This document shows positions 13,887 through 30,900 of a DNA stretch of 62,800 nt, one piece after another; position 1 is the first letter of the stretch; each line of letters starts with the position of its first letter. Origin of the DNA: an uncultured Methylococcales bacterium (lineage in GTDB: Bacteria > Pseudomonadota > Gammaproteobacteria > Methylococcales > Methylomonadaceae); NCBI GenBank assembly GCA_903902705.1, contig CAIUVX010000045.1, positions 1 to 62,800 on the forward strand. Reading direction: 5' to 3'. The notes beneath the pieces were generated by a model that was not told the DNA's origin, searched no databases, and worked only from the letters and a program-made list of their open reading frames with translations. A program made the position numbers and the translations under genes.

Positions 13887-13917
13887 ACCAGCACAAGGCT
13901 TTTGCCTTGTGCTGGTT
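13887..13917. terminator. Strong bidirectional hairpin between convergent genes
   Basis: ACCAGCACAAGGC-TTTT-GCCTTGTGCTGGT is a perfect 13-bp stem sitting between the stops of the SulP gene and the convergent gene at 13925. There is no U-run, so it could equally be a mRNA-stabilising hairpin. Confidence 0.65.
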
Positions 13918-13924
13918 AAGTGCT

Positions 13925-14338: not shown

Positions 14339-14470
14339 TCCTCACATAAAGCATACATTATTGTTATTTTCTAGCAACCACCGCCACTTTAAATATTTTT
14401 GCAATGAAATTCAATAGATTCATATCCAGATAAAAATAAGGGGAATAACACGCTAGAGCTAACACACAAT

Positions 14471-14558
14471 CAAATGATACCGTTCGTGGTGAGCTGTGAG
14501 CTTATCGAACCACATTCACACTTCGACAAGCTCAGTGCGAACGGTTTTGTTATCATTT
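14471..14558. repeat. Family A palindrome upstream of purM
   Basis: Outer arms AAATGATA and TATCATTT flank CCGTTCG, two GAGC-TT-TCGAA-type cores and CGAACGG. It is non-coding; the open frame running through it into purM is a reading artefact. Confidence 0.8.
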
Positions 14559-14653
14559 TATTAACCGTTAGCTATATTGTTTATCCTTGCCACAAAACCC
14601 AGCGGGTCTTGTACAATATAAACACAATAATTTTTAAAGAGAGAGTCGCAAAC

Positions 14654-15685: not shown

Positions 15686-15698
15686 GTTATTTACAGCT

Positions 15699-15730
15699 CA
15701 AAAACGCCCCGTTTACGGGGCGTTTTTGTT
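15699..15730 (+). terminator. Rho-independent terminator of purM
   Basis: CAAAAACGCCCCG-TTTA-CGGGGCGTTTTTG is a 13-bp stem running into a T-rich tail, 14 nt after the purM stop. Confidence 0.95.
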
Positions 15731-15851
15731 TCTGCACCAGCATAAAAATTCCAATAAATTCTATTGGACTATGTGATTATTTCCATTGGTTAATGTAATT
15801 AATTACATTGACTAATAGCACTGATTCTCAGTCTAAAAACGCGAACAATTC

Positions 15852-16007
15852 GTATTTTTAAATATACAAATTCCACTTATAAAGTATGTTATTTATAATT
15901 TACTTATATTTCAATTAGTTATCGATATTTTTTTTTTCAAAAAAAAAACAAAATCGTATGATCGTTCTATTGTTGCTTTGTAGTAGTTGTTGCTAAACTG
16001 TATCCAG
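15852..16007 (+). promoter_or_regulatory. Upstream regulatory region P1 of the 883-aa multicopper oxidase, shared with P2
   Basis: Four blocks recur in the same order in the region before the 20713 gene. They are GTATTTTTAAATATAC (15852-15867), TTATATTTCAATTAGTTAT (15904-15922), a T-run facing an A-run (about 15926-15950), and ATCGTTCTATTGT (15961-15973) leading to GTTGCTA and ACTGTATCCA. The first box and ATCGTTC are 109 nt apart here and 107 nt apart in P2. A possible promoter is TTGTTG (15970) with TAAACT (15994), 18 nt apart. Between 15730 and 15852 I see nothing else. Confidence 0.7.
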
Positions 16008-16091
16008 ATTTTTAGTGCGGTATTCGTTTTTCAAAATTGATGTATACCGCTATCAAAATTAGAAACGTTGTTAAGCGTTCAGAATTAGAGA

Positions 16092-16228
16092 GTAAAGGCT
16101 AAACCTAAACGTAAGTTAGGGGCGGAAAGTTACGAATCCAAATTGTTTGGAAAGTCGAACTACCGAGGTGGCTTCGTTAACGTCACAACAGGTGCTTTTA
16201 AAGCGTTAAATTTTACCTAATTTTTAGG
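16092..16228 (+). ncRNA. Structured leader, candidate c-di-GMP-I (GEMM)-like riboswitch with Shine-Dalgarno hairpin
   Basis: The order AAAGGCTAAACC, a CCTAAAC-GTAA-GTTAGG hairpin with a GNRA loop, GGCGGAAAG, then a downstream CCGAGGTGGC resembles the GEMM-I aptamer consensus (GGCAAACC, GNAA loop, GGACGCAAAG, CCGGGTTGCC). GTTACGAA (16130) pairs with TTCGTTAAC (about 16173), enclosing a perfect TCCAAA-TTG-TTTGGA hairpin. Just before the start codon, CCTAA (16216-16220) can pair with TTAGG (16224-16228), which overlaps the ribosome site TTAGGAG. The same CCTAA/TTAGG pair closes the aptamer hairpin, which allows switching. Deviations, such as GCGGAAAG for ACGCAAAG, leave the ligand uncertain. Confidence 0.5.
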
Positions 16229-16237
16229 AGATGTATC

Positions 16238-18889
16238 ATGTCGAGAATTAATCATGCCTCAGACACGATTGAAATTGTGACCGTTAACAACAAAACATCT
16301 GGCTTTAAAGTCAGAGCAACCTCAAATTTGGCTATGGCAATAGCTGCTACACTATCTGGCTATTTGATTTCTGCTATGCCAGTACAGGCGGCGGTCAATA
16401 TCCCAACCGATAGCGCACCCAGTCCATTGTGTATTGCTGGTGCTTGTGCAACAGAATTTACCGCCAAGATGTTGATGTTTGAAGAATTTGGCACTAAAGA
16501 TATTTCCAGTGCTACTTCTTCAATGTCTACACACAGTGGTTTTACAACCACCGACTGTTTTGGTAATGTCGATGGTCCTGCATTAGATAAATTTCTGAGC
16601 GAAGACCTTGCTTCTCTTCCTAGCCGTAGATCAGATGAAGACGATAATCATATTCCTGCAACAGCAACTAACCCTTGGGAAAGTAAAGTAAAAAGCTGTG
16701 TTCCTGCAACAGTCAGTCTGCCTTCCATGCCATTGGATGGTCGTCCAGGTGGTGAAGATTTTGCTCACCAACGTTGGTCTGAATTCCCTACTCAAGTTGC
16801 ATTTCAATCTGCTCAAGCAGGTGCGCGTGTCAACGGCGGTTTGCGTGATAAAAGACAGCTACATGGCTACAAAAAAGGCAGCGAGTTCGGTCCTAATGGC
16901 TTATATTACATAGATGCGAACGGCGACGGTATTCCAGGTACGGCGGGCGCACAAATCAAGATTCATCCTAATTTACCCGTTCAAAAACCTCAGTCAGTTT
17001 GGACATTTGACGGTACATTACCGCCTAAACTGTTGATGGCAAAATACGGCGAAGCGGTTTTATTCCGTCACTATAACGCTCTGCCTCTTGATCCAGGTTC
17101 AAACGGCGGTTTTGGTAAAAACACCATTACTACTCACGAACATAACGGTCACAACCCAGCAGAAAGTGATGGTTTCGCCCATGCCTACATTTATCCAGGT
17201 CAGTTCTATGATTACCACTGGCCTATGCAATTAGCAGGTTATGACAGTATCAATACCGATAAAAGCGATGCCAGAACAGGTGCGCCTGACGGTAATGGTG
17301 GCATCACCAGAGTCCGTGGCGACTGGCACGAAACCATGAGTACCCATTGGTTCCATGACCACATGCTGGATTATACCGCGCAAAACGTCTACAAAGGCAA
17401 CGCGGCGATGATGAATTACTACAGTGCAATTGATCGTGGTAGAGAGCCTGCAGATGCTCAAGAAGTTTTGGGTAGCCCTGATCTTCAAGGTGTTCCTCAA
17501 AAACCTGGTTATGGTTGCCATTACAATAATCCTAACAACGCCAATCTTTGTTTGCCCAGTGGTTCAGGTTTGGATTGGGGTAACCGCGATTATGACGTTA
17601 ACTTAGTGGTTGCTGATAAAGCATGGGATAACACTGGACAGTTGAAATTCAACATTTTTAACACTGATGGCTTCCTCGGCGACCGCGCAACGGTTAACTG
17701 GGAATACAAACCTTTCTTGGATGTTCGTGCGCGTAGTTACCGTTTCCGTATCTTGAACGGTAGTGTGTCACGTTTTTTCAAGTTAGCACTGGTGCGTGAA
17801 AGACCATTAACTGATGCGCAATGTGTGGCTGCTGCTAAAGCTAAAGGTGTATTAGGCGCAACAATCGTAGCACCAGCAAGACCAGCAACAAGCGTAACAC
17901 CCGCAGAGCCATCAAAATGTTATGAAAAAATTACCTATCACATGATTGCAAACGATGGCAACATCATGCAACATGCGATTCCGTTCCCCAACGCTGCATC
18001 GCCTGATGCCTTACCTGAGCAGTCAATTGCTGAGCGTTTTGACATCATCGTAAACTTCGCTGGTATGCCAGCAGGTACAAAATTGTATATGGTCAACATC
18101 CTTGAACACACTACGGGTGCAGGCCCTGCTAGATACCTGCCTTTAGCGGATGTATTAGGTACAAAATATAAAAATGATGGTGTCAACGGTGACCCTGTTG
18201 TCGGTAAAATCATGGAATTCCGTGTACAAAACTACACAGGTACTGACTTCAGTATGAAGCCAGCGGATTATGAAGAAGGCAAAAAACAAATGATTCCGTT
18301 GAATAGACCAACTCAAACGGAATTAAAAGCAGCAACTCAAAGAACCTTTAAATTTGGTAAAAAAGCAGTTGCCGATACCCAACCTTGGACAATCGAGGCT
18401 GATAGTACGGGTGTTGCTTTAAACGCTGATCCACACAGAATTTCAGCCGCGCCGACTACTGGGGCAACTGAAATCTGGCATATCAGCGGTGGTGTAGGTG
18501 GTTGGAGTCATCCTGTACACATTCACTTTGAAGAAGGTCAGATTCTGTATCGTAACGGTAAAGCTCCCCCTATCTGGGAAAAATATGCGCGTAAAGACGT
18601 ATATCGCATAGGTGCATTGGCAGATACTGGAGCTACCATTGATGTTGCGATTCGTTTCAGAGAGTTTGCGGGTACTTATGTAGAACATTGCCACAACACA
18701 CAACATGAAGACAAAGCCATGTTATTACGTTGGGACTTACAAAACCCTGGACAAACGCAAGCGATTAACACACCAATGCCAGATTGGGATGGTGTTAAAT
18801 ATGATCCAAGTACCTATTTATCAACTGCCAAATTTGGTGACTTAGCTGCAAAGAAAAAGTTTGTCTTACCAGCAGGTTTATTACCCTAA
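16238..18889 (+). CDS. Secreted multicopper oxidase, 883 aa
   Basis: This is a secreted laccase-like oxidase with a long N-region signal peptide (hydrophobic core about 31-47, cleavage near VQA-A). All four copper motifs are present: HEHNGH (from H300), HWFHDH (from H370), HPVHIH (from H758), and HCHNTQHEDKAM (H817, C818, H819, H823, M828). The set makes a type 1 site with axial Met plus the type 2/type 3 trinuclear centre. It is larger than CueO or CotA (about 500 aa), with extra sequence between cupredoxin domains, including an Ala/Pro-rich insert near 545-560. Upstream lies region P1 and a structured leader; downstream lies a SCO-cytochrome gene. The substrate is unknown. The neighbouring mof-type locus suggests metal oxidation, but organic substrates cannot be excluded. 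Confidence 0.9.
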   Translation: MSRINHASDTIEIVTVNNKTSGFKVRATSNLAMAIAATLSGYLISAMPVQAAVNIPTDSAPSPLCIAGACATEFTAKMLMFEEFGTKDISSATSSMSTHSGFTTTDCFGNVDGPALDKFLSEDLASLPSRRSDEDDNHIPATATNPWESKVKSCVPATVSLPSMPLDGRPGGEDFAHQRWSEFPTQVAFQSAQAGARVNGGLRDKRQLHGYKKGSEFGPNGLYYIDANGDGIPGTAGAQIKIHPNLPVQKPQSVWTFDGTLPPKLLMAKYGEAVLFRHYNALPLDPGSNGGFGKNTITTHEHNGHNPAESDGFAHAYIYPGQFYDYHWPMQLAGYDSINTDKSDARTGAPDGNGGITRVRGDWHETMSTHWFHDHMLDYTAQNVYKGNAAMMNYYSAIDRGREPADAQEVLGSPDLQGVPQKPGYGCHYNNPNNANLCLPSGSGLDWGNRDYDVNLVVADKAWDNTGQLKFNIFNTDGFLGDRATVNWEYKPFLDVRARSYRFRILNGSVSRFFKLALVRERPLTDAQCVAAAKAKGVLGATIVAPARPATSVTPAEPSKCYEKITYHMIANDGNIMQHAIPFPNAASPDALPEQSIAERFDIIVNFAGMPAGTKLYMVNILEHTTGAGPARYLPLADVLGTKYKNDGVNGDPVVGKIMEFRVQNYTGTDFSMKPADYEEGKKQMIPLNRPTQTELKAATQRTFKFGKKAVADTQPWTIEADSTGVALNADPHRISAAPTTGATEIWHISGGVGGWSHPVHIHFEEGQILYRNGKAPPIWEKYARKDVYRIGALADTGATIDVAIRFREFAGTYVEHCHNTQHEDKAMLLRWDLQNPGQTQAINTPMPDWDGVKYDPSTYLSTAKFGDLAAKKKFVLPAGLLP

Positions 18890-18906
18890 ATAAACTTTTG
18901 AGAGTA

Positions 18907-18938
18907 CGCTGGGATGTAGCGATAGCGAAATCCCAGCA
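18907..18938. repeat. Short palindromic repeat (GCTGGGAT type)
   Basis: CGCTGGGAT and ATCCCAGC flank a GTAGCGATAGCGAA loop. A related palindrome lies at 35379-35412. Confidence 0.6.
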
Positions 18939-18950
18939 ATCAATATCTAA

Positions 18951-18980
18951 AACTGGGCGAGGTATTTACCTCGCCCAGTT
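18951..18980 (+). terminator. Terminator hairpin after the 883-aa oxidase
   Basis: AACTGGGCGAGGT-ATTT-ACCTCGCCCAGTT is a perfect 13-bp stem placed 62 nt after the stop. It separates the oxidase from the SCO-cytochrome gene, so read-through or a separate promoter is needed for the latter. Confidence 0.75.
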
Positions 18981-19083
18981 ACGTTAAACTCCAACGAAAT
19001 ACCCATCCAAAATTTGTAATAGCACGAATACCACATTACACTGTCTGAAATAGTTTCACCTTACCTAATCATAGAGAGCAATA

Positions 19084-20058
19084 ATGAAAGCACATCGCGT
19101 AGCTAATTATTTGAGAAAATTGTTTTGTTGCAATGTATTCATCGGAGCTATGTTGATGCTAGGCAGTAACCTAGCATGGGCTGCGCCTGAAAATTCACCG
19201 TGGGGAAAAGACTATTTTCCTAACATAGAATTAGTCGATCAAGACGGCAAAAAATACCATTTTTATGATGACCTTGTTAAAGACAAAGTCGTCGTTATCG
19301 ATTTTATCTTTACCCATTGTGGTGATACCTGTCCAGCGCAGACAGCCAGTTTAACCAAAGTATATAAGTTATTAGCAGACCGTATGGGCAAAGATATTTT
19401 CTTTTATTCCATTAGTATTGATCCCAAACACGATACCCCCAAAGTCCTCAAAGAATATGCAGAAAAGTTTAATGCAGGTGCTGGTTGGCTTTTTTTGACG
19501 GGAAAAACAGACGATGTCACCTTGTTAAGACAAAAATTAGGCTTATACAGAACGGGTATTGATGCTGCCAAACTCAACGAACATAAAACCAGTTTTATGA
19601 TAGGTAATGATGCTACAGGGCAATGGATAAAACGCTCTCCATTTGATAAACCCCAAGTATTGGCTGGATTAATCGGGCGTTCTATCAGTCGATCACCCGA
19701 TGATAAAAAAGAAAATCTGGCGGATTATTCAGAATCGACAGTCATTCCAAAACTCAGCAAAGGGGAAGATCTGTTTCGCTCACGTTGTGAGTCTTGTCAC
19801 AGTTTAGGTACTGAAGACGGCATAGGACCTGGATTGCTCAATGTCACGCAGCGGCGTGATAGAGCATGGCTTGCTCGTTGGATTAAAACCCCTGATAAAT
19901 TACTCGCTAAAAAAGACCCCATTGCAATAGCGTTGCTCAATCAATACAAAAAAGTATTAATGCCTAACTTCAGACTCAATGATGCTGACGTGGAAGCACT
20001 CCTTATATATATGGAGGATAGTAGTAAAGCTGCACAACAAAATGACTCAAACAAATAA
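19084..20058 (+). CDS. SCO1-type copper chaperone fused to a cytochrome c domain
   Basis: A 324-residue secreted protein with a signal peptide (cleavage near AWA). Residues 40-200 are a SCO/thioredoxin-fold domain with the copper-binding CxxxC pair C79 and C83 (THCGDTCP) and the distal His167 (NEHKTSF). Residues 220-315 are a class I cytochrome c domain with CESCH (C235-H239) and a likely axial Met293 (VLMPNF). SCO proteins load copper into oxidase sites or reduce cysteines. The fused haem suggests that electron transfer is tied to copper delivery. The position between two multicopper oxidases suggests service to them. ATG 19084 follows AGAGAGCAATA. Confidence 0.85.
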   Translation: MKAHRVANYLRKLFCCNVFIGAMLMLGSNLAWAAPENSPWGKDYFPNIELVDQDGKKYHFYDDLVKDKVVVIDFIFTHCGDTCPAQTASLTKVYKLLADRMGKDIFFYSISIDPKHDTPKVLKEYAEKFNAGAGWLFLTGKTDDVTLLRQKLGLYRTGIDAAKLNEHKTSFMIGNDATGQWIKRSPFDKPQVLAGLIGRSISRSPDDKKENLADYSESTVIPKLSKGEDLFRSRCESCHSLGTEDGIGPGLLNVTQRRDRAWLARWIKTPDKLLAKKDPIAIALLNQYKKVLMPNFRLNDADVEALLIYMEDSSKAAQQNDSNK

Positions 20059-20210
20059 AATAGTTATTTCAATCTTTCGCTAGTTTTTTTCGTAATGCAA
20101 AATGGATTCTATAAGTTTCCATTCTTGCTTGCGAATAGTTCAAAAATTCCCTTCGATAAATTTAATACCCAGTAAGTTCCTAGTAAAAAGTCAGTAGGTA
20201 TTAGCGTTGT

Positions 20211-20248
20211 CAGGCTTCGCCTAACTTTGCAAGCAGAGCTTGCACTCC
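20211..20248. repeat. Palindromic repeat family G, copy 1 (left of the mof-like operon)
   Basis: GCAAGCAGAGCTTGCACTCC (20229-20248), with CAGGC 18 nt before it, recurs in inverted orientation at 29839-29874. The AGCAGAGCT core is a near-palindrome. The remaining gap from 20059 to 20440 holds no gene. Confidence 0.7.
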
Positions 20249-20439
20249 AAAATACACACCGCTAATTGATAAAAGCTTAGTGGTGAAAATCAACGTAATT
20301 TCGTAACAAAGAAAATCAAAAATATGTTTTTTGATTTCAGACTGCCCCTCCTTCATTATCAATTTACCAATCGCTCCAAAATTCTAATCATTAGCTGTGA
20401 TGTAGTTCCGTTTTTAGACGGCATTATTCACGTCATTTT

Positions 20440-20590
20440 GTATATTTAAATATACCAATCTAAAACGTTCTTATTCACATAACTTATCTTTATATTTCAA
20501 TAGGTTATGATTAATTTTTTTTTGTAAAAAAAGCCAATAATGAACGATCGTTCCATTGTGACTACAGTGTGTTGCTATTAGACTATACCC
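20440..20590 (+). promoter_or_regulatory. Upstream regulatory region P2 of the giant multicopper oxidase operon, shared with P1
   Basis: It carries GTATATTTAAATATAC (20440-20455, a perfect palindrome), TTATATTTCAATAGGTTAT (about 20491), a T-run facing an A-run, ATCGTTCCATTGT (20547-20559), GTTGCTA, and ACTATACCCA. Order and spacing match P1. A possible promoter is TTGTGA (20556) with TAGACT (20579), 17 nt apart. The leader after it has a GTTAAAGC/GCTTTAAC hairpin but not the aptamer-like sequence found after P1. Confidence 0.7.
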
Positions 20591-20712
20591 AAGTTGTTAA
20601 AGCAGATTTAACAGCTTTAACACATTGGTTTTAAATTAAAAATAGTGTGTTTAATTGCGCTAATGTCACATGGGCTTTTTCAGATTTTAAACAAATGACA
20701 AGGATAACTGTA

Positions 20713-21030
20713 ATGAACAAAATTAGAAACATAGGATTATCTTTGACAATCCTTGTTGCATTAGGTGCTGGGAATATAGTGTATGCCGCTACCTCGCCAG
20801 CTAATCCAACTATTCAAATGCGTGAAGGCAATCCGATCGACTCACATAACCCGCAAAACAAAGGGCTAAAAACACCGCATTCAACCAGAAAAGAGGCTGC
20901 TAAGCGGTTGAAGCAGGGACACCAGCAGCAGCAACAGCAACAGCAGCATGGTGGCGGAAAAAACCAAGGTCAGGCTGGAGTCAGTACTGGTAACAATCAA
21001 GCACCATCAAATCAGGGAGGTGTAAAATGA
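20713..21030 (+). CDS. Small secreted Gln/His/Gly-rich protein coupled to the giant oxidase
   Basis: This 105-residue protein starts at ATG 20713 (AAGGATAACTGTA ribosome site) and has a clear signal peptide, cleaved near VYA. The mature part is hydrophilic. A His/Asn/Pro section (IDSHNPQNKGLKTPHS) is followed by a Lys/Arg stretch, a run of eight Gln bounded by His (GHQQQQQQQQHGGG), and a Gly/Asn/Gln tail. The polyglutamine is coded by mixed CAG/CAA codons. The stop overlaps the start of the 1767-aa oxidase by 4 nt (ATGA), so the two are made together. No known family; it may be a partner, metal binder or matrix component of the oxidase. Confidence 0.7.
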   Translation: MNKIRNIGLSLTILVALGAGNIVYAATSPANPTIQMREGNPIDSHNPQNKGLKTPHSTRKEAAKRLKQGHQQQQQQQQHGGGKNQGQAGVSTGNNQAPSNQGGVK

Positions 21031-24000
21031 ACTACAAATTACGCAGATCAATCCAACAGTTAATGGTTGTCGGTATTACTGCCACGTTTGCAACGGGGGC
21101 ATTTGCCGCCCTCGGACAGCAAAATCCACCGCCAGGACCCAATCAGGTGCCTGATTATTTCGGTATCGTGCCTAACTTCGCCAACAGTCCTGAGCCAGTT
21201 CTGGCAGCAGTGTCTAGTGTCACAGGCGCAGGTACAGGCGCAGCGGTAACCACCTATGACTATAACAACTGGGCTACAACGCCCCGCATCACCGATGTCC
21301 AAGGTGGAACAGGCTATGCCAATGGTGATGTTCTGTCCATCGTGGGCGGTGCTGCAAATACTTCTTGCAGTGTGACGGTCAATAACGTATCTGGAACGGG
21401 TGCCATTACCCCTAATGTAGACGCTAACGGCACAGTAACTGGTCCTGGCATTACCTTAGCCACTGCTGCCAGTGCGGCAGCCACCGTGGACACGACGACA
21501 GGTTCAATTACTGGTATCGCGGTTACCTACGCAGGCACTGGATATACCTCTGCCCCGAAGGTCACAATTTCTGCACCTACCCTAGGAGGCGTGAGCAATG
21601 TGACTGCAACTGCAACAGCCGCTGTTGATAAAGCGTCGGGGGGCATTAGTATCACGCTTGTCGATGCTGGTTCTGGCTATGACTCCTTAAATCCTCCGAC
21701 GATCACAATCGACGCACCTGCAAATTTGAGTTGCACGGGTTTCACCACGCCAATCGCTGGTACTGGTATCCGTAAATTCCTTGACGCGTTACCAGGTATC
21801 CCAGGTGTTTCGTCTTATTTGACGGGAGCTGGTTATGACACGAACGGAGCAAACCTACTTGGTCAATCCCTTCCTGTTGCCGTTGCAGATACAACGACTT
21901 TCCCTGGTTCTGATTACTACGAGATAGAGGAAACTGAGTACACCAAACAACTGCATTCTGATTTGCCAGCCACTCATTTACGCGGTTACAGACAGCTAAA
22001 TAATGGTACCGACGCTTCAGGTGCTAACACAGTAGTTCCACCAACTGGAAACCAATATCTTGGCCCAATCATCGTGGCAAAAAAAGGTCGTGCAGTACGG
22101 ATCAAGCTGGTCAACCATTTATCGAAAGGTGCGGCTGGCAAACTGCCTTTACCAGTAGATACCACCTATATGGGTGCTGACACTGCTTTAGCCACCGACA
22201 ACCGCACCGCGTTGCATTTACACGGCGGTAATACACCGTGGATCAGCGATGGTACACCGCGTCAAACTGTTAAGCCGAAGAATGAGGGAACCTCTGCTCA
22301 AAACAAGGGCGAAAGTACTCGTGATGTACCAGATATGTGGTTTGATGCCACCTCTGGCAACCTAATTTCTAGCTGCGCGGGTCAACTGACTTGTACAACA
22401 GCCAATGCCACCAACAACCCTGGCGACGGTTCATTAACTTACTACTTCACCAATCAGCAAAGTGCGCGCTTGATGTTCTATCATGATCATGCCGAAGGTA
22501 TTACCCGTTTGAACGTGTACGCGGGTATGGCGGCAGGTTATATCATTCAGGATCCAACCGAACAGGCGATGGTCAAAGGTGGTACAGCGTATGCAGCGGC
22601 GCAACAAATGGGTTATAAGGGAACAGAGCTGGCAAAGTATGATAGCACTTCATCGGCACCTATCTATCCAGCAGTACTACCAGATTTGCCCGACACCATT
22701 CCATTGGTGATTCAGGAAAAAACCTTCGTACCGAATAACACTAAGCCAGTGATGAACTTCTATGCGGCTTTCGCTTCTCAGCTTCAATCCCAAGATCCAA
22801 CTTGGCGTTGGGGTACTACTGGGTTTGATGCCAATGGTAATGTTGTTTCCACAGGTCCAAACGGCAATGGTGACCTGTGGGTTCCTCATGTGTTCATGCC
22901 TAACCAAAATCCAGGCGACATCTCTGGCGGTAACGCAATGGGGCGTTGGGATTATGGCCCATGGTTCTGGCCTCCGTTCACCGCTATTTCCAATGGTCCG
23001 ATTAACAACCCGTATTACGACCCCTTGTGTAATACGACAGCGAGTTACTGCGAGCCAACGCAAATCCCTGGCGTACCTAACGGTAGCACCGCTGGCGTTA
23101 AGAATGCTATGAACGGGGGGGCAGTTACCACTTCACCCTCAGGTACTCCAGAAGCCTTCAATGACACCCCACTGGTTAATGGTACTGCGTATCCTTACAT
23201 CAACTTGGATCCGAAGCAATACCGTCTGCGTCTGTTAAGTGTTGGTAATGACCGTATGCTCAATCTGTCACTGGTTATTGCGGCGAGCAAAAACTCCAAG
23301 ACTACTGCGGATGATAATGCTGGCTCAACAGGTCAAGCCGTATTGTGCGATGGTGTGAATGCCGTAAATCCAGCCGATTGTACCGAAGTTAAAATGGTAC
23401 CGTTTACCTCGACGCAGAATTCAGCTACCCCATTCCCAAGTCACTGGTATACCCAGCAAAAAGGTGGCGTGACTTTTGACGGTCGTCCATCTGGTGTATT
23501 TGATCCGAAAACCCGTGGTCCTGCTATGGTACAGATTGGTACCGAGGGTGGCTTCCTATCGTCACCTGTGGTCATCAAAAACCAACCCGTTAACTACGAG
23601 TACAATCCAAAAAACATCCTGATTGGTAACATCAAAGAACACGCTTTATTGTTAGGTCCTGCGGAACGTGCCGATGTCTTGGTGGACTTCAGCAAGTATG
23701 CGGGTGCTACCTTGATCATGTACAACGACGCACCTGCACCGATGCCTGCGTGGGATTTACGTCTGGATTATTACACTGGCAACTATGACAACACCGATAC
23801 GGGTGGTGCGTTCTCGACTATTCCAGGTTATGGTCCTAACACGCGTACTGTGATGCAGATTCGGATTAGTAGTGATACTAGTAAGGGCGGTACTGTTGCT
23901 GCCAGTGCTGACACTAGCCGTGATAGCACAGGTAGCATCAAGCTTCCTGAGTTGACAACCGCCGTGCAAACTGCGTTTAGAACCAGTCAGGAGCCAATTA

Positions 24001-26330
24001 TCGTTCCGCAGGCTGCTTACAACCCAGTTTACGGTACGTCTGTACCTGATTCCTTGGGTACTGATCTATCAAGAATTGCCGATTATCAACTGACGTTCAA
24101 GCCGCTGATTAAGGATGCTACTACGGGTAACTTCTCTATCTTATCCAGCGACCCAACAGTCACACTGGACATGGCACCAAAAACCATCATCGAAGACTGG
24201 ACTATGAACTGGGGACGGATGAACGCATTGCTGGGTACTGAAGTACCACGCACTACTTCAACTATCCAAACTTCGATTCCGCAAGCGTATATTGATCCAC
24301 CAACCGAGTTAGTCAAGATCACGCCTAATACCAATGCTACGCCGATTAGTGGCACACTGGCTGATGGTACCTCATTATGGAAAATTACCCATAATGGTGT
24401 TGACTCGCACTCCATCCACTTCCATCTGTTCCATGTACAGATCGTTAACCGAGTCGGTTGGGACGGCGCGATTTACCCACCAGAAGCTAATGAACTGGGC
24501 TGGAAAGACGCTGTATTGATGCATCCTTTATCTGATGTCATCGTGGCACTACGTCCTATGACTATGGAACTGCCGTTCAAAGTGGCAAATAGCCATCGTA
24601 AGATTGATCCAAGTAGTAATGCTTCAGGCACTGATTTCTTCAACTTGAATCCAATGACTGGTAATGCCGCGAATGTTACTGGCAACAATCTGGACATGAA
24701 CTATGGTTGGGAATACGTCTGGCACTGCCATATTCTGGGTCATGAAGAAAACGACATGATGCGGGCTATTGCGGTAGCACAACCACCAGAAGCAGCTAGT
24801 GGTTTGACTGCAACCACTCTCTCAGGAAATGGTGGTGTCAAGCTAGATTGGAAAGATAACTCCATGACCGCTAACTGGGTTGAAATTACACGCTCTTTAG
24901 ATGGTGTGATGAAAGCTGATAAGTCAGGATTTCAAACCGTAAATGCAACGTTCAATATGCCTGTCGCATCGCTTATCGATCCAGCGACTGGTAAGGCATT
25001 CGCTAAAAAAGAATGTGATTTACAAGCGGGTTGTTTATTGTCTTACACCGATAAAACAGCGGCGGCTACTGCTTCATATTATTACCGAGTCGTAGCTAAC
25101 AACACCGTAGGTGGTGGTGCGGGTCGTGCTGATAAACCATTGGCGGCAGTTGCTGGCGGTGGTTGGGACTATAGTCAAACCCTACCAGCAGCTGTTAATT
25201 CGTTGGTACCGAACCTTGTTGATGCTGTGACTGGTGTTATGGGTTACGCAGGTTATGCTAACGTCACTGCTAGCTCGGATGCAGCGACAGTTAATCGCCC
25301 TGTGCCAATGCCAATAGCAAAGCTATCAACAACAGCACTTGACTTTGGAACTATAGCAACTACTAGTAGTGGTAGCGTACTGCCAGTAACATTAACCAAT
25401 ACAGGTACATTGGCATTGACTATTAGCACCGCTAATAATTCTAAAATCAGTATTACTGGAACTAATGCTAATCAGTTTAGTGTTGCGAATAACCCTTGTG
25501 GTGCGTCCTTGGCAGCAAATAATGCCACTTGTACCATCAATGTTACCTTTACACCTACGAGTGCTGGAAGTAAAACTGCAACGTTGACTATCACTGATAA
25601 CTCTAACAATGTAGCTAACAGCAAGCAAACTGTGACATTGTCAGGTATAGGTTTTGTACCGCCGCCAATTGCAACTCTGAGTGTTAGTACTCTGACATTC
25701 CCTGATACTATGTCAACAATGACTAGTGCTACGCAAATGGTAACGTTGACTAACACAGGTGGTTCTAGTCTGACTGTCAACAAGGCTATGACTTTTACAG
25801 GATCGTTTGCAAGATCAACAAGTACAAGTGGTAGCTGCACGACAACTGGCACTGGCACAACGTTTACTTTAGCGGCTAATGCAAATTGTACTGTTGGTGT
25901 AAGCTTTACACCAACGGCAACGGGTGCATCGGCGGGTAGCTTGGCGATTACCAACACCAATGCTAACGGTGCAACAGCGCAAACGCAAAATGTAAGCTTG
26001 TCAGGTAATGGTATAGCATTAGCGGTAACTGCTAATCCTGACATCCTGACGCAGGCAGCACCCACAGCAACTGGTACACAAACCGTGACTGTGAATGTTC
26101 GCACCAATGACATACCAACAACGGGAACCGTGGCTTTTGTTAGTCTCTCAAAAACAGCGGGTAACGGTACGGCAAGCGTAGTCGGCAACAATGTTGTGTT
26201 GTCACTGCCTGCTAGTGGTGCCAACAACACCGCTCGTGCAAATGCAAGAAAAGGTGTTTACACAGTGACTTACAACTTGACTGCAAATGGAACAACAGTG
26301 TCATCGACTGCTACCATCACGTTGAACTAA
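21027..26330 (+). CDS. mofA: Giant MofA-like multicopper oxidase, 1767 aa (putative manganese oxidase)
   Basis: It has a signal peptide (cleavage near AFA). Residues about 50-240 hold three modules of the form G-x-GY with P-x-[IV]TI (YAGTGYTSAPKVTI, DAGSGYDSLNPPTITI). A long multicopper oxidase region follows: HLHGG (H397, H399), YHDH (H486, H488), HSIHFHLFH (H1128 to H1136), and HCHILGHEENDM (H1233, C1234, H1235, H1239, M1244). All copper ligands are therefore present. The C-terminal 520 residues carry a fibronectin III-like domain, two Hydin/choice-of-anchor-D-like domains (each with a paired Cys) and a last beta domain. Length and gene order (FKBP, then cytochrome c) match Leptothrix discophora MofA, linked to Mn(II) oxidation. 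The symbol is by analogy; activity is inferred. Confidence 0.85.
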   Translation: MNYKLRRSIQQLMVVGITATFATGAFAALGQQNPPPGPNQVPDYFGIVPNFANSPEPVLAAVSSVTGAGTGAAVTTYDYNNWATTPRITDVQGGTGYANGDVLSIVGGAANTSCSVTVNNVSGTGAITPNVDANGTVTGPGITLATAASAAATVDTTTGSITGIAVTYAGTGYTSAPKVTISAPTLGGVSNVTATATAAVDKASGGISITLVDAGSGYDSLNPPTITIDAPANLSCTGFTTPIAGTGIRKFLDALPGIPGVSSYLTGAGYDTNGANLLGQSLPVAVADTTTFPGSDYYEIEETEYTKQLHSDLPATHLRGYRQLNNGTDASGANTVVPPTGNQYLGPIIVAKKGRAVRIKLVNHLSKGAAGKLPLPVDTTYMGADTALATDNRTALHLHGGNTPWISDGTPRQTVKPKNEGTSAQNKGESTRDVPDMWFDATSGNLISSCAGQLTCTTANATNNPGDGSLTYYFTNQQSARLMFYHDHAEGITRLNVYAGMAAGYIIQDPTEQAMVKGGTAYAAAQQMGYKGTELAKYDSTSSAPIYPAVLPDLPDTIPLVIQEKTFVPNNTKPVMNFYAAFASQLQSQDPTWRWGTTGFDANGNVVSTGPNGNGDLWVPHVFMPNQNPGDISGGNAMGRWDYGPWFWPPFTAISNGPINNPYYDPLCNTTASYCEPTQIPGVPNGSTAGVKNAMNGGAVTTSPSGTPEAFNDTPLVNGTAYPYINLDPKQYRLRLLSVGNDRMLNLSLVIAASKNSKTTADDNAGSTGQAVLCDGVNAVNPADCTEVKMVPFTSTQNSATPFPSHWYTQQKGGVTFDGRPSGVFDPKTRGPAMVQIGTEGGFLSSPVVIKNQPVNYEYNPKNILIGNIKEHALLLGPAERADVLVDFSKYAGATLIMYNDAPAPMPAWDLRLDYYTGNYDNTDTGGAFSTIPGYGPNTRTVMQIRISSDTSKGGTVAASADTSRDSTGSIKLPELTTAVQTAFRTSQEPIIVPQAAYNPVYGTSVPDSLGTDLSRIADYQLTFKPLIKDATTGNFSILSSDPTVTLDMAPKTIIEDWTMNWGRMNALLGTEVPRTTSTIQTSIPQAYIDPPTELVKITPNTNATPISGTLADGTSLWKITHNGVDSHSIHFHLFHVQIVNRVGWDGAIYPPEANELGWKDAVLMHPLSDVIVALRPMTMELPFKVANSHRKIDPSSNASGTDFFNLNPMTGNAANVTGNNLDMNYGWEYVWHCHILGHEENDMMRAIAVAQPPEAASGLTATTLSGNGGVKLDWKDNSMTANWVEITRSLDGVMKADKSGFQTVNATFNMPVASLIDPATGKAFAKKECDLQAGCLLSYTDKTAAATASYYYRVVANNTVGGGAGRADKPLAAVAGGGWDYSQTLPAAVNSLVPNLVDAVTGVMGYAGYANVTASSDAATVNRPVPMPIAKLSTTALDFGTIATTSSGSVLPVTLTNTGTLALTISTANNSKISITGTNANQFSVANNPCGASLAANNATCTINVTFTPTSAGSKTATLTITDNSNNVANSKQTVTLSGIGFVPPPIATLSVSTLTFPDTMSTMTSATQMVTLTNTGGSSLTVNKAMTFTGSFARSTSTSGSCTTTGTGTTFTLAANANCTVGVSFTPTATGASAGSLAITNTNANGATAQTQNVSLSGNGIALAVTANPDILTQAAPTATGTQTVTVNVRTNDIPTTGTVAFVSLSKTAGNGTASVVGNNVVLSLPASGANNTARANARKGVYTVTYNLTANGTTVSSTATITLN

Positions 26331-26382
26331 GCCTGACCTGTTGAGTTGCAGCACTATCGCAACTTAATCAATCGGCTGAAAA

Positions 26383-26525
26383 GACTGGGTTGATGGTGAA
26401 AACTTCAACCCAGTCACTTTGAATACAACCGAGCCAACGCTAACCCCGTTGGCTCAACTTTATAAAACGGTCAGAACCACGACCCTTTTTTGGATTACGC
26501 CGAAACCTTCGACGCAATCCAAAAA
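26383..26525. repeat. Three successive hairpins between the oxidase and FKBP genes
   Basis: Hairpin 1 (26383-26415) has GACTGGGTTGA/TCAACCCAGTC. Hairpin 2 (26431-26455) has GAGCCAACG/CGTTGGCTC. Hairpin 3 (26486-26525) has TTTTTGGATT/AATCCAAAAA. None ends in a long U-run. They may reduce or process the transcript entering the mofB-like gene. The 356-nt gap holds no other feature. Confidence 0.65.
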
Positions 26526-26686
26526 TGAAATTCAACGATAGCCTTGGCTAACTCCCCCATTCTTTGCTAAAGTGTGACTACTCACCCCGCACTGACATAA
26601 TAACGTGGGACGATTTTAGCTATCAGATCAATACAGCGTTTAACGCGGATTTTCTCCGCAAATTTAATTATTCAAGAGGTTTACTG

Positions 26687-27451
26687 ATGATAAAAAGAAA
26701 CGTGGCAGCCTTGTTAATCGGCTGCGCTTTGCTACCCGTGGCGTATGCCAAAAAGTCTCCCCCCACCGAACAGCCTAAAGCCGCCGAACAAAGCACTTCG
26801 ACTACAGAAAAAAAGACTGACAAAAGCTCAGTCAGCTACGGTATTGGTGTTGATCTGGGGCGAAATTTCAAGCGTCTGGCTCTCGATATAGACCTTGACC
26901 AACTTGCCAAAGGACTTAAGGATGCTTATACAGGCAAGAAGCTAAGCATACCCGATAACGAATTGCGCAATATCATGAGTGCCTATCAGAATGAGCTTAA
27001 AGCGAAACAGGCTGCTGCGGTAAAAAACGCTAGCGATGCCAATCAAAAAGCGGGTGCAGCTTTTCTGGCTGAAAATACCAAGAAGGACGGTATCGTAACG
27101 CTACCCAGTGGCTTGCAGTATAAAATTATCAAACAAGGCGACGGCAAGAAACCAACTGAAACTGATATTGTAGAATGTAACTATCGCGGCACACTCATTG
27201 ACGGCACCGAGTTTGATAGCTCCGCCCGTGTCGGCAAACCCGTACAATTCAAAGTCGCTAGCATTATTCCTGGTTGGCAGGAAGCCTTGAAGCTGATGCC
27301 AGTCGGTTCTAAATGGCAGCTATTTATTCCAGCGCAACTGGCTTATGGCGAGCGCGGTGCGGGTCGTGACATAGGACCAAACTCGACATTGATATTCGAT
27401 GTGGAGTTGCTCAGCATAACCGCAGGCAAAGAGACACCCACTGCACCTTAA
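26687..27451 (+). CDS. mofB: FKBP-type peptidyl-prolyl cis-trans isomerase (MofB-like)
   Basis: A 254-residue secreted FkpA/Mip-type isomerase. I chose the ATG at 26687, preceded by AAGAGG; the longer frame lacks a signal peptide, while this start gives a good one (LIGCALLPVAYA). Residues about 45-140 form the helical dimerisation domain typical of Mip/FkpA (VSYGIGVDLGRNFKRL, then a Lys/Ala-rich helix). Residues about 145-245 form the FKBP fold with DGTEFDSS, VIPGW-type IIPGWQEAL and AYGERGAG. It would assist folding of periplasmic proteins. Its position directly after the giant oxidase is that of mofB in Leptothrix, suggesting a dedicated folding helper. Confidence 0.88.
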   Translation: MIKRNVAALLIGCALLPVAYAKKSPPTEQPKAAEQSTSTTEKKTDKSSVSYGIGVDLGRNFKRLALDIDLDQLAKGLKDAYTGKKLSIPDNELRNIMSAYQNELKAKQAAAVKNASDANQKAGAAFLAENTKKDGIVTLPSGLQYKIIKQGDGKKPTETDIVECNYRGTLIDGTEFDSSARVGKPVQFKVASIIPGWQEALKLMPVGSKWQLFIPAQLAYGERGAGRDIGPNSTLIFDVELLSITAGKETPTAP

Positions 27452-27494
27452 TCAGCTTTTAAGTCCGATTGATTTAACTTCTTTGGAGAACTAG

Positions 27495-29198
27495 ATGTTT
27501 TCACAATTTGCTTCATTTTCAAAAATTCGCCAAGAATCTTCATGGCTGTTAGGCAGTCGCTGGCTGATGTTGTTATCGTTAGTTACCCTAACGTTTGTTG
27601 TGTATGCCGAGCCACCAGTTGCTGATAATGCAGACGTAGAATTGGGTAGACGAATTTATATGGAGGGAATTTTACCTTCTGGCAAACCATTGCAGGGTAA
27701 GCGTCAGGACACTGTTCAAGTTGAGGGTGCTACAGCAGCCTGTGAAACCTGTCATCGGCGTAGCGGTATGGGAAGTCTGGAAGGCAATATTGTGGTAAGC
27801 CCCATCAATGGTGGTTTTTTGTTTGCCACGGCTGAAAATCGTCCGATTGCGTTGATGGATCAACGTGCTCCCAAGAACTTAACCCGTGCGCACGAACCTT
27901 ATACAGAAGCCTCTTTTACCAAGGTACTCCGTGAAAATGTCAATGTAGATGGTCGCGCAATGAATGCGCTGATGCCGAAATACGATTTAAGCGATGCTGA
28001 AGTCAAGGCATTAATGGCTTACCTGAGACAATTGTCGGCAGAAGTGTCGCCAGGTGTCGGTACTGATAAAGTACATTTTGCTACGATAATTACCCCAGAT
28101 ACAGATCCAAAAAAGAAGGATGCTATGGTAAGCATGATGCAAGCGAGCTTTGCTCAGCGCAATGCCAGCCAGCAAACTTATTCTGGGCGTATGCGTATGC
28201 CCATCGATCTGATTCCGCGCACCTTACGCAATTGGGAGTTAGTGGTTTGGGAATTACAGGGCGCACCAGATACTTGGGGAACGCAATTAGCGGAAAATTA
28301 CCGCAAACAACCCGTCTTTGCAGTCATTTCAGGGCTTTCAAATACCACTTGGGCACCTGTGCATACGTTTTGTCAGTTAGAGAAATTGCCCTGTATGCTT
28401 CCTAGCGTTGCACTTCCACCTGCTGAAACTGGCTATTATTCAATTTACTATTCTCGCGGTGTGGCACTGGAAGCCGATGTTTTAGCTAAGCATTTGCATA
28501 ATCAGGAAAAAAATGCCCCTCACCGATTATTTCAAGTCTATCGGGATAACGAGGTGGGGCAGGGCGCGGCTCAAGCATTGACTAAAGCTCTACATGATTC
28601 GGGTATTCAAATTGAAAATCGTGTACTAAGCGGGAATGAACCGTCTGCTTTAAAAGCGGCACTGAAAGGCGTTTCCAATAAAGATGCGCTCATGTTATGG
28701 TTGAATCCAGCAGATTTGTCCGCGCTTAACAAGGTGGAATCACAAAAGCTGCCAGCCGTCACTTATGTTTCTGGCTTTTTGACACAGGAAAACTATGACT
28801 TTGCTTCAAAGGCGTGGAAACCACAAATTCGAGTGGTTTATCCTTATGACTTGGGTGAAAAACGTCAGGGAAGTGAAGCGTCACGTCAGGGAAGCGAAGA
28901 GTCATTGAAAAGATGGCTAAAAACTTGGCAACTGCCAGTGGTCGATGTGGCATTTCAGTCCGAAGTTTTTTTCAACTTACTGTTTTTAACAGATATTAGC
29001 TCTCAAATGCTGGATAATCTCTACCGAGATTATATGATAGAACGCGCAGAGGATATGTTGAGTCTGGGTTCTAATGTTTCGCTCTATCCGCATTTAAGTC
29101 TAGCTCGTGGACAACGGTTTGCTTCTAAAGGGGCTTACATTGCACACTTTGCCACAGATGGAAAACTGGTAGCTGAATCGGATTGGATTGTACCGTAA
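27495..29198 (+). CDS. mofC: Cytochrome c with periplasmic-binding-type domain (MofC-like)
   Basis: This 567-residue secreted protein has a signal peptide ending near VYA. Residues 45-185 are a cytochrome c region with CETCH (C83-H87) and candidate axial Met in the MPKYDLSD-type segment. The remaining 370 residues look like a type 1 periplasmic binding fold (repeated alternating strands and helices, VFAVISGLSNTTW, DALMLWLNPADLSAL). The C-terminal part contains a short direct repeat, RQGSEAS/RQGSEES. In Leptothrix the third mof gene also encodes a haem-binding protein, so it may accept electrons from the oxidase. What the binding-type domain recognises is unknown. The 43-nt gap from the FKBP gene indicates one operon. 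Confidence 0.82.
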   Translation: MFSQFASFSKIRQESSWLLGSRWLMLLSLVTLTFVVYAEPPVADNADVELGRRIYMEGILPSGKPLQGKRQDTVQVEGATAACETCHRRSGMGSLEGNIVVSPINGGFLFATAENRPIALMDQRAPKNLTRAHEPYTEASFTKVLRENVNVDGRAMNALMPKYDLSDAEVKALMAYLRQLSAEVSPGVGTDKVHFATIITPDTDPKKKDAMVSMMQASFAQRNASQQTYSGRMRMPIDLIPRTLRNWELVVWELQGAPDTWGTQLAENYRKQPVFAVISGLSNTTWAPVHTFCQLEKLPCMLPSVALPPAETGYYSIYYSRGVALEADVLAKHLHNQEKNAPHRLFQVYRDNEVGQGAAQALTKALHDSGIQIENRVLSGNEPSALKAALKGVSNKDALMLWLNPADLSALNKVESQKLPAVTYVSGFLTQENYDFASKAWKPQIRVVYPYDLGEKRQGSEASRQGSEESLKRWLKTWQLPVVDVAFQSEVFFNLLFLTDISSQMLDNLYRDYMIERAEDMLSLGSNVSLYPHLSLARGQRFASKGAYIAHFATDGKLVAESDWIVP

Positions 29199-29216
29199 CA
29201 TTTTAGGATAAATACT

Positions 29217-29798
29217 ATGAATCGCTGTCATCAACACCAACGGCTTGTAATGCCCCTCATCATTGTCTTTGCCTTGTTTTTCACGCCGTTTTCCTTGATG
29301 GCAGAAGAGTCAACACCTGCGTTGACTCGTACCGTTGGTAATTATCAACTGCCAGATGTTAGCGTCATTCGTCAAGATGGTAAAAAATTATCGTTGCGCA
29401 AAGAATTGGATGATGGTCGCCCTGTGATTTTGAATTTTATTTTCACATCCTGTTCGGCAATTTGTCCAATGCTCAGCCATGTTTTTTCCAAAGTGCAAGA
29501 CAAATTGGCTGATGTGCATTTGGTATCAATTTCTATTGATCCAGAAAATGACACCCCCGCAAAACTCCTTGAGTATGGCAAAAAATTTAATGCAGGTGCG
29601 CATTGGGATTATTACACGGGTACACTGAAAACCAGTATTGCCATACAAAAAGCATTTAAGGTTGATGGCGGTGATAAAATGAATCACTCCTCGGTGATTT
29701 TTATGCGTCCAGCCCCTGATAAACCTTGGGTTAGCCTGAATGGATTTGCTAGCCCAGATGCAGTTATTCATGAATACCAAGAGATGATTAAACCGTAA
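29217..29798 (+). CDS. SCO1-family copper chaperone
   Basis: A 193-residue SCO protein with an N-terminal signal or anchor segment (hydrophobic 11-28). The copper ligands are C79 and C83 (TSCSAICP) and H157 (KMNHSSV). Unlike the protein at 19084 it has no haem domain. It follows the cytochrome gene by 18 nt, so it belongs to the oxidase operon. It probably metallates the giant oxidase, inferred from position; SCO proteins classically serve cytochrome oxidase Cu-A, and no such oxidase is in the window. Confidence 0.88.
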   Translation: MNRCHQHQRLVMPLIIVFALFFTPFSLMAEESTPALTRTVGNYQLPDVSVIRQDGKKLSLRKELDDGRPVILNFIFTSCSAICPMLSHVFSKVQDKLADVHLVSISIDPENDTPAKLLEYGKKFNAGAHWDYYTGTLKTSIAIQKAFKVDGGDKMNHSSVIFMRPAPDKPWVSLNGFASPDAVIHEYQEMIKP

Positions 29799-29838
29799 TA
29801 TTGTCAGTAAGCTCTTATCAATGAGTGGCGTATATTCG

Positions 29839-29874
29839 GGAGTGCAAGCTCTGCTTGCACTCATGCAAAGCCTG
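29839..29874. repeat. Palindromic repeat family G, copy 2 (right of the mof-like operon)
   Basis: GGAGTGCAAGCTCTGCTTGC is the exact reverse complement of the core at 20229-20248, and CCTG follows as CAGG precedes there. The two copies bracket the oxidase operon in opposite orientation. Confidence 0.7.
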
Positions 29875-29899
29875 ATTTCCACCACTATTCACAAGAGCT

Positions 29900-30700
29900 T
29901 TAAAAATAGAAAAGATTGGAGTTTTTTTTGTACTCCAAACCGATTAATTTACCATCTATTGCTTTGGCTATCGCATGGGCGCGGCTATTGGTGTTCAATA
30001 ATTTGGACGCGCCATCAAGGTGTTTGTTGACAGTGGAAACAGAAATGTCGAGAATCGAGGAAATTTCTTCGGTACTTTTTCCTTCAGCAACCCAAACCAA
30101 ACACCTACGTTGTTGTCCGCTCAGTACAATAGAATTATTTTTTGAAACATTGTAGATTAGGGGTGACAGCAAGCCTCTTTGAATCAAATCGCACTTAGCT
30201 TGGGTGATATGTTGCGCCAAATGCACGATATAAGGCTGAATATATTGTATCCAACTCGTTATCTTTTTTTGATCAAAGCGAAAAGTGTAATGCAAAAAAC
30301 CAAAAAAATGATTGGGTCCATGTACGGGTATAGTGATGCCATCGTAAATGCCCATCATAAGTTTGCTGGAAATAAAGTCCGCCCGATGAGGAAGGTCGCT
30401 CCAGCGAAATGGAATAATCTGCTGACGCGCAGTAATGATTCGAGTATCTATTTTCCAGTATTCATGTTGGCTATAGGTTTTTTTCCATTCTTCAGGAGCG
30501 TCTGAATAAATGTAGAAATCCTCACTCCTAAAATTATTCGGCATCACAAAGCCATAAGCAATACTGTCAAAACCTAGTTGCAATTTGATGTCCGTGACGA
30601 CATCGATTAATTGCGCTGAGCTTTCAATCTCGCACAATACTTTCAGGGTACTATTAAACCATTTTGTGGGAATACGACTATCTTTAATCGAATCAAGCAT
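29900..30700 (-). CDS. LuxR-type transcriptional regulator with autoinducer-binding domain (no LuxI nearby)
   Basis: This is a 266-residue regulator. Residues about 15-170 resemble the acyl-homoserine-lactone-binding domain, with aromatic and acidic positions as in TraR/LasR (W-x2-Y-x4-Y-x3-D in the EEWKKTYSQHEYWKIDT segment, W in PFRWSDL, G in GITIPVHGP). Residues about 190-250 form the LuxR helix-turn-helix (LSGQQRRCLVWVAEGKSTEEI and STVNKHL). No luxI gene is in the window, so it is a solo here. It is convergent with the mof-like operon and is a plausible but unproven regulator of it. Confidence 0.85.
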   Translation of the reverse strand: MLDSIKDSRIPTKWFNSTLKVLCEIESSAQLIDVVTDIKLQLGFDSIAYGFVMPNNFRSEDFYIYSDAPEEWKKTYSQHEYWKIDTRIITARQQIIPFRWSDLPHRADFISSKLMMGIYDGITIPVHGPNHFFGFLHYTFRFDQKKITSWIQYIQPYIVHLAQHITQAKCDLIQRGLLSPLIYNVSKNNSIVLSGQQRRCLVWVAEGKSTEEISSILDISVSTVNKHLDGASKLLNTNSRAHAIAKAIDGKLIGLEYKKNSNLFYF

Positions 30701-30900
30701 TACAATTTTCCTTGGCTACAAGCAATTTCCAAGCGTTCAGTTAATTAACACTTACGCAATGTGCATACGTTCAAATAATATAGAAAGAGAAAAGTTAGCG
30801 GCTATTTTTTAAGTCAAGCAAGCGGCTAAAACGTTGGTAAGGATACCAAATTTAAAATAAATCCTAAAGCTAATGAAGTTTAAATAGTAAATGATTGCGG

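Follow-up and report, generated by a model that had tools for sequence, protein, structure and literature searches.

The enzymes that oxidize manganese in lakes, wetlands and groundwater filters are still debated, and the function of the mof genes is unproved. A five-gene mof operon has been predicted in Rubrivivax sp. A210, with mofABC, a metallochaperone gene and a gene for an exported protein (PMC8218464). Its gene kinds, shared with the mof operon of Leptothrix discophora, include a giant multicopper oxidase (MCO; MofA), an FKBP/Mip isomerase (MofB) and a cytochrome c protein (MofC). MofC-like proteins of iron oxidizers combine a cytochrome c domain with a periplasmic-binding domain; two iron oxidizers also have a gene for a copper chaperone in the same cluster as their mofA-like genes (PMC5566968, excerpt; citations so marked rest on part of the paper). 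Here we describe a mof-type cassette, and a second oxidase unit beside it, in a 62,800-nucleotide stretch of DNA from an uncultured Methylococcales bacterium (contig C45 of a 4.0-Mb assembly of 210 contigs; hereafter the window), whose host we infer to belong to the Methylococcaceae. The placement follows from relatives in the same family whose contigs coincide with named Methylobacter and Methyloglobulus records: L039 equals L070 (Methylobacter sp.) in reverse complement, and 6 kb of L038 are contained in L067 (Methyloglobulus sp.).

Other manganese-oxidizing systems offer further comparisons. Bacillus MnxG needs the small partners MnxE and MnxF, which are encoded by contiguous genes (PMC5622069, excerpt), purified CotA laccase oxidizes Mn(II) (PMC3618234, excerpt) and MopA, a haem peroxidase, can oxidize Mn(II) (PMC6247904, excerpt). 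Genes moxA and mnxG, with no mof in the part of the paper available, have been reported in metagenome-assembled genomes (MAGs) of Gammaproteobacteria and others (PMC10386581, excerpt), and Crenothrix has been counted as a manganese oxidizer from the literature (PMC12569786, excerpt). We found no report of a mof operon in Methylococcaceae in the literature searched, which combined methane-oxidizer names with mofA, mopA, manganese oxidation and multicopper oxidase and covered few subscription papers.

It is almost certain that the genes at 20713-29798 have been identified correctly and form a mof-type cassette. Seven genes lie on the plus strand between purM and a minus-strand LuxR-type gene (open reading frame (ORF) list and Pfam), and all seven are where the original prediction had placed them. 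The features are:

16238..18889, + strand: MCO883, multicopper oxidase of 883 aa, second oxidase of the locus (Pfam Cu-oxidase_2; signal-peptide-like start; full copper ligand set)
19084..20058, + strand: SCOcyt, 324 aa, SCO1/SenC domain fused to a one-haem cytochrome c, usual partner of MCO883 (Pfam SCO1-SenC and Cytochrom_C)
20059..20653, no strand: leader region before the left breakpoint (about 91-92% DNA identity to related genome G070, which has about 155 extra bases)
20713..21030, + strand (ORF listed from 20647): small protein with signal peptide (no Pfam family)
21027..26330, + strand: MofA-like giant multicopper oxidase, 1767 aa (Pfam Cu-oxidase_2; CotA-fold core at about residues 247-1253; C-terminal ASH/choice-of-anchor-D Ig-like domains)
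26687..27451, + strand (ORF listed from 26564): MofB-like peptidyl-prolyl isomerase (Pfam FKBP_N/FKBP_C; signal-peptide-like start)
27495..29198, + strand: MofC-like protein, 567 aa (Pfam Cytochrom_C with one CxxCH, and Peripla_BP_6)
29217..29798, + strand: SCO1/SenC copper chaperone, last gene of the cassette (Pfam SCO1-SenC; follows MofC in part of the relatives)
20654..29885, no strand: exchanged block (type II mof cassette at this place in G070, flanks 91-95% identical)
29900..30700, - strand: autoinducer-binding regulator of LuxR type in the constant flank (94% identity to G070)

Start codons of the small protein and the FKBP protein are more probably the ATGs at 20713 and 26687 because signal-peptide-like stretches begin there; signal peptides were judged throughout by a simple hydropathy rule or by eye.

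The order giant MCO, FKBP, cytochrome c had been likened to mofA-mofB-mofC, and the likeness holds for the gene kinds (Pfam, and the descriptions from iron oxidizers and strain A210): the giant MCO has four copper-binding regions, the FKBP gene directly follows MofA and MofC is a two-domain protein. The same prediction regarded the SCO gene and the small protein as making the locus more elaborate than the known operon. This is not supported, since the A210 operon already has mofABC with a metallochaperone and an exported protein; together with the iron-oxidizer clusters it makes the window's cassette one of a known five-gene kind. Unlike the Leptothrix and Rubrivivax operons, the window's cassette lies in what is probably another family, adjoins a second oxidase unit, and gives way to a cassette of another type at this site in a closely related genome.

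The giant oxidase has a complete set of copper ligands, all visible as first noted: H397, H399, H486, H488, H1128, H1131, H1133, H1233, C1234, H1235 and H1239 do not vary among the 18 aligned sequences, of which the window's is one, while the axial position 1244 is Met in the window and M, F or L across the family. An AlphaFold2 model of residues 236-1290 built from 27 sequences has a mean predicted local distance difference test score (pLDDT) of 66, with 289 residues below 50, and a predicted template modelling score (pTM) of 0.75. Its best solved-structure matches are CotA laccases (for 4ako, Z 21.3 and a root-mean-square deviation of 3.2 Å over 467 residues, spanning 12-1018 of the model). 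The matches indicate that, as modelled, the protein is a laccase-type core with large insertions, which make it about twice as long as that of CotA, followed by Ig-like ASH/choice-of-anchor-D domains that CotA lacks. The C-terminal part is 34-44% identical to giant haem peroxidases of other family members.

MofC had been called simply a cytochrome c. The cytochrome domain is there, and its haem motif (C83, C86, H87) is invariant in 15 of 15 sequences; the description was incomplete in that the protein also has a periplasmic-binding domain. A fold model and structure search give this domain a type 1 periplasmic-binding fold, so MofC may bind a ligand. These structural results bear on the possibility that the locus attacks phenolic or humic matter in the manner of laccases, with both MCOs oxidizing organic compounds and the MofC domain sensing or capturing an aromatic one. 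Among solved structures, CotA and bilirubin oxidase come closest to the oxidases, and several top MofC fold matches bind aromatic acids (p-coumarate, caffeate, 4-hydroxybenzoate, p-hydroxybenzoate). However, these matches are at 10-15% identity in a very large fold class that includes leucine and fatty-acid binders, and the neighbouring genes are those of metal oxidizers. We regard attack on organic matter as quite unlikely.

Relatives of MofA were sought by scanning genome contigs, and the best 80 of 435 were kept; the first pass of the genome search may miss diverged copies. In a tree of the MofA core (81 rows, quick search, midpoint root, support from the Shimodaira-Hasegawa-like approximate likelihood ratio test (SH-aLRT) only), the window's protein falls among 17 rows that are all from Methylococcaceae or genomes of the same family (SH-aLRT 100), with Thiodictyon (100) and then Terriglobia (98) next to this clade. 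No Leptothrix sequence was among the best 80 of 435 relatives. A 23S probe for Burkholderiales matched 2 of 52 genomes, and the order of one match (33 genomes, probably not Burkholderiales) gave no MofA match. A further four genes from the family (L049-L052) make up a separate group, here called type II (99), with L053, L054 and Syntrophus on the same side of the branch (95). The FKBP tree also separates type II (3 rows, 100/100); the SCO1 tree does not separate types I and II, so its part in the exchange described below is less sure, although SCO1 sits inside the breakpoints. At E 1e-20, MofC matched 2 of 299 genomes across the phylum, the window's own included; the other genome (G825) has SCO- and MofC-like genes and no MofA match at E 1e-5 within the 19.9 kb examined. 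Plasmid spread of mof was considered and is ruled against by the lack of any MofA match in 72,556 plasmid records (E 1e-20).

Conservation of the cassette was assessed in 17 distinct loci of the clade, a count that includes the window and excludes the fragmentary L080, L082 and L084. FKBP, MofC and SCO all occur near MofA in seven (window, L041, L067, L068, L069, L073, L074), with another ORF between MofA and FKBP in L041 and L074. FKBP and MofC occur in two more (L076, L081), and MofC and SCO in one (L078).

Some loci hold further oxidase genes. In Methyloglobulus (L214 and L067; G018:C46), the mof cassette is immediately preceded by a subtilase gene, a second MofC, a second SCO and three genes carrying Cu-oxidase domains; no HCHxxxH motif was found in those three, so they may not be complete oxidases. 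By gene kinds only, this block, which lies outside the window, resembles the three-MCO cluster of Sideroxydans lithotrophicus ES-1 with its mofC-like and copper-chaperone genes (PMC5566968, excerpt). At 9122 in L081, a 527-aa ORF on the other strand, 33% like part of MCO883, adjoins the mof cassette. In Candidatus Methanoperedens BLZ2 (L119, 9476-18750), a MofA-like gene is followed by a 1271-aa ORF weakly like MCO883 (23%), so that two large oxidases are adjacent.

A rival reading is that the locus serves extracellular electron transfer of the OmpB kind: the giant MCO would exchange electrons with solid metal oxides, with MofC as its connection to the periplasmic chain. The cluster of Geobacter sulfurreducens, whose OmpB serves Fe(III) reduction, contains a homologous giant MCO, a MofC-like protein and an SCO, as does the window (PMC5566968, excerpt). 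Relatives of the giant MCO also occur in Geomonas, Methanoperedens and other anaerobes, and a small coupled exported ORF precedes the Geobacteraceae genes too (3 of 3). Against this, the window has a MofB-type FKBP and the G. sulfurreducens cluster, as far as the excerpt goes, has no mofB, although Geomonas and Citrifermentans loci do have an FKBP gene in front. The window's MofA belongs to a gammaproteobacterial clade apart from the Geomonas and Citrifermentans rows (in the quick tree of the best 80 of 435 relatives, in which G. sulfurreducens OmpB was not included), its copper ligands are intact, and no gene with at least two CxxCH motifs was flagged in L067-L082 or L084, loci of differing length. 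On balance, an OmpB-like role is unlikely.

A small protein is coupled to MofA throughout the window's clade. In the window its stop codon overlaps the MofA start by 4 bp. Among 86 MofA-like genes with more than 200 bp of upstream sequence, 27 are preceded by an ORF of 45-160 aa with a signal-peptide-like start that ends no more than 25 bp from the MofA start; the control figure, for other ORFs of at least 300 aa in the same loci, is 16 of 626. The 27 cases comprise all 18 rows of the window's clade (17 distinct loci, two rows being identical), four of five Terriglobia rows, all three Geobacteraceae, the MAG locus L087, and L144, where the case looks spurious. In the 17 distinct loci the overlap is exactly 4 bp in 14 and 1 bp in two, with a 3-bp gap in the last. 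None of the four type II loci, that of G070 among them, has such an ORF. We found no earlier report of this MofA-coupled signal-peptide family, whose gene either overlaps the MofA start or ends at most 3 bp away from it in 17 of 17 distinct clade loci.

The original prediction had described this protein as small and rich in Gln and His. It exists and is coupled to MofA, but the Gln/His run is specific to the window; the part shared with homologues, judged by eye, is a basic RK-x-AA-x-RLK-like stretch. A role as copper caddy, suggested by the run, was set aside, as none of the other homologues displayed has such a run; no conserved His, Cys or other metal ligand was noticed among them. The arrangement recalls the MnxE-MnxF-MnxG complex of Bacillus sp. 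PL-12, in which a large MCO also has small partners encoded next to it (PMC5622069, excerpt). This is analogy, not homology: MnxE and MnxF are two copper-binding proteins, whereas the window encodes one small, predicted exported protein with a basic stretch.

Between close relatives the cassette itself differs at a constant site. The window's genome (G000) and a genome of the same genus (G070) encode highly similar flanking proteins (PurM 99%, MCO883 92% (91.9%), SCOcyt 90%, LuxR 94%, ABC permease 93%), in contrast to the cassette proteins (MofA 38%, FKBP 44%, MofC 41%, SCO1 64%). DNA identity is about 91-95% up to about 20653 (90.7% for 13888-20346 and 91.6% for 20345-20654) and 92-94% from about 29886; between these breakpoints only patches of 67-85% align. 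The junctions are sharp: on the left the break falls about 60 bp short of the small protein's likely start codon, and on the right just past SCO1. The two genomes thus have the leader in common and differ in the coding block of 9.2 kb, from which we infer that one mof type was exchanged for another as a block at this site. Near each end of the block lie short stretches that recur elsewhere in G070, and these may have served the exchange. No MofA match was found in the other six congeners searched. We found no report of a type swap beside the same MCO883-SCOcyt pair in a congener, and the presence of two mof types at one site in two close relatives offers a ready natural comparison.

MCO883 is conserved in its own right. 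In a comparison with 22 full-length relatives (46-92% identical), all 23 sequences, the window's among them, share the 11 copper ligands and the axial Met. SCOcyt adjoins MCO883 in 20 of these 23 loci, as judged by eye, on the upstream side in L183; the exceptions are L200, L211 and a second MCO883 copy in L186. In three loci of one genus (L188, L189, L190) and one of another (L200), MCO883 stands beside a giant protein with An_peroxidase, RTX and ASH domains. By domains only, these neighbours resemble MopA-type haem peroxidases, which also combine An_peroxidase with hemolysin-type calcium-binding repeats (PMC6247904, excerpt); the window's genome, by contrast, has no such peroxidase at E 1e-10. 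C-terminal ASH domains are common to the peroxidases beside MCO883 and the window's MofA. We found no report of the recurrence of MCO883-SCOcyt in the family, or of its position beside MopA-type peroxidases in two other genera.

Co-occurrence was counted in 201 genomes of the family (MCO883 at 300 bits or more, MofA-like at 100 bits or more, giant peroxidase as a frame of more than 1600 aa). MCO883 was found in 18, a MofA-like protein in 14 and a giant An_peroxidase in seven. MCO883 and MofA-like proteins occur together in seven genomes, with 1.25 expected (hypergeometric p 3e-5); MCO883 is present in all seven genomes with a giant An_peroxidase, with 0.63 expected (p 1e-8), as against none of the 12 genomes whose An_peroxidase frames are all smaller. 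Counted by genus, the figures are 7/7 for MofA (p 8e-5) and 4/4 for the peroxidase (p 0.009).

Other genes recur in these neighbourhoods. In five loci (L191, L201-L204) MCO883-SCOcyt has another MCO next to it, about 630-680 aa long and accompanied by an SCO of its own, and such a pair lies beside a 3353-aa An_peroxidase/RTX protein in L207. A protein of 280-295 aa without a Pfam match, encoded at 6376-7218 in L188, accompanies the giant An_peroxidase there and also in L189, L190, L200, L209 and L213, with 49-92% identity to that of L188.

The association of MCO883-SCOcyt with mof could nevertheless be incidental, the two oxidase blocks being functionally unrelated and mof merely adjoining a free-standing pair, which is compatible with metal oxidation by mof. 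Only 2 of the 23 full-length MCO883 loci adjoin MofA (window and L052), the blocks have separate leaders, and a single evolutionary joining is seen. The co-occurrence with MofA and with giant peroxidases is, however, above expectation; the pair has been kept while the adjoining mof type differs; L185 has an SCO and a MofC-like gene (26%) beside MCO883; and Methyloglobulus has its additional Cu-oxidase, MofC and SCO genes next to mof. We consider unrelated blocks a serious possibility, though the less probable one. The presence of two SCO proteins and two MCOs at one place, with weak matches to the CueO profile, might instead point to copper homeostasis, in which a methane oxidizer with a high demand for copper would oxidize Cu(I) and deliver copper. 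The NCBIfam CueO scores are only 72.5 bits for MCO883 and 41.3 bits for the 1767-aa protein, far under the cut-off of 525, no copper pump or copper-regulator family was found among the neighbouring genes scanned, and the giant protein carries Ig-like domains, so that this explanation is very improbable.

The original prediction also proposed two oxidases in one regulated locus. They are indeed adjacent, but the LuxR neighbour is at most a candidate regulator and promoter scans were at chance. Between the end of the MCO883-SCOcyt block (20058) and the listed small-protein ORF (20647) lie 588 bp; with two such blocks, one locus need not mean one operon. Sigma-70-like and terminator-like sites in 15600-31000 occur at chance frequency. 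A sigma-54 promoter, as proposed for the manganese oxidases of Pseudomonas putida (PMC11930936, excerpt), was sought and rejected: no site with two or fewer mismatches lies in the leaders 15686-16237 and 20059-20712, and sigma-54-like sites across the whole window number 79 against 73 expected.

The best explanation overall, to which we give about an even chance, is a mof-type cassette for an extracellular multicopper oxidase, with MCO883-SCOcyt as a separate, co-working unit. The giant MCO would be exported and folded with the help of the FKBP and perhaps the small protein, the SCO would load it with copper, and the C-terminal Ig-like domains would hold it outside the cell. It would then take electrons from a reduced metal and pass them to O2 at the trinuclear centre or to MofC. 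MCO883-SCOcyt would work alongside whichever surface oxidase is present (mof type I, type II or MopA-type), for example in a second oxidation step. Extracellular metal oxidation is somewhat favoured because the gene kinds match those of Rubrivivax A210 and the iron-oxidizer clusters and because of the CotA fold, the conservation of the cassette and the co-occurrence of MCO883 with MofA-like proteins and giant peroxidases. Mn(II) in particular falls a little short of an even chance, yet it is most probably the metal, with Fe(II) second.

Several observations weigh against this reading. Leptothrix MofA is itself only a putative manganese oxidase, and high mofA expression is reported for Leptothrix ochracea in a setting with more Fe than Mn (PMC11412304, excerpt). 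The Km of CotA for Mn(II) is about 15 mM (PMC3618234, excerpt), so the CotA fold supports Mn as the natural substrate only weakly. MofA relatives in Geomonas, Methanoperedens, Methanoregula and Syntrophus (among the best 80 of 435) make a single universal O2-dependent function less likely, and the presence of homologues in anaerobes, among them the OmpB that functions in Fe(III) reduction, makes the substrate of the window's oxidase less certain. Seven of the 17 clade loci (L042, L070, L071, L072, L075, L077, L079) lack mofB, mofC and SCO next to MofA, two of them (L070 and L075) owing to the end of the contig. MCO883 has mof as its neighbour in just two genomes, G000 and G070, and these probably share the site by common descent; the co-occurrence p values ignore kinship and use cut-offs chosen after the lists were seen.

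A broader proposal is that Methylococcaceae possess a modular Mn(II)-oxidation kit, in which a constant MCO883-SCOcyt would work with one of several exchangeable large surface oxidases (mof type I together with a coupled small activator, type II or MopA-type). We hold this to be rather unlikely as a whole; if true, methane oxidizers would be direct Mn(II) oxidizers and MCO883-SCOcyt a general accessory of both bacterial classes of manganese oxidase. If methane oxidizers do oxidize Mn(II), methane and manganese cycling would be tied together in one cell. A search with the AMO family found no match in the window's genome and likewise none in 14 control genomes, and is hence uninformative on methanotrophy. 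Two questions can now be tested: whether the small coupled partner is needed for active MofA, and whether MCO883-SCOcyt is a common helper of MCO-type and peroxidase-type manganese oxidases.

Elsewhere in the window, purM probably starts at about 14651 and ends at 15685. Its ORF as listed begins with a dispersed repeat (14474-14650 and many genome sites), and matches to the listed ORF number 61 in G000 and 70 in G070, mostly to the first 50 or so residues only. On the minus strand at 38670-40755, a COX1-family gene present as two ORFs (376 and 119 aa) lies beside a gene for a cytochrome c; together they may be a frameshifted norBC-like set. An nSTAND1-TPR protein adjoins a TIR/CHAT protein at 53502-57430 (minus strand), a possible defence pair, and a type ISP restriction enzyme at 7848-11554 is apparently split into methylase and specificity ORFs.

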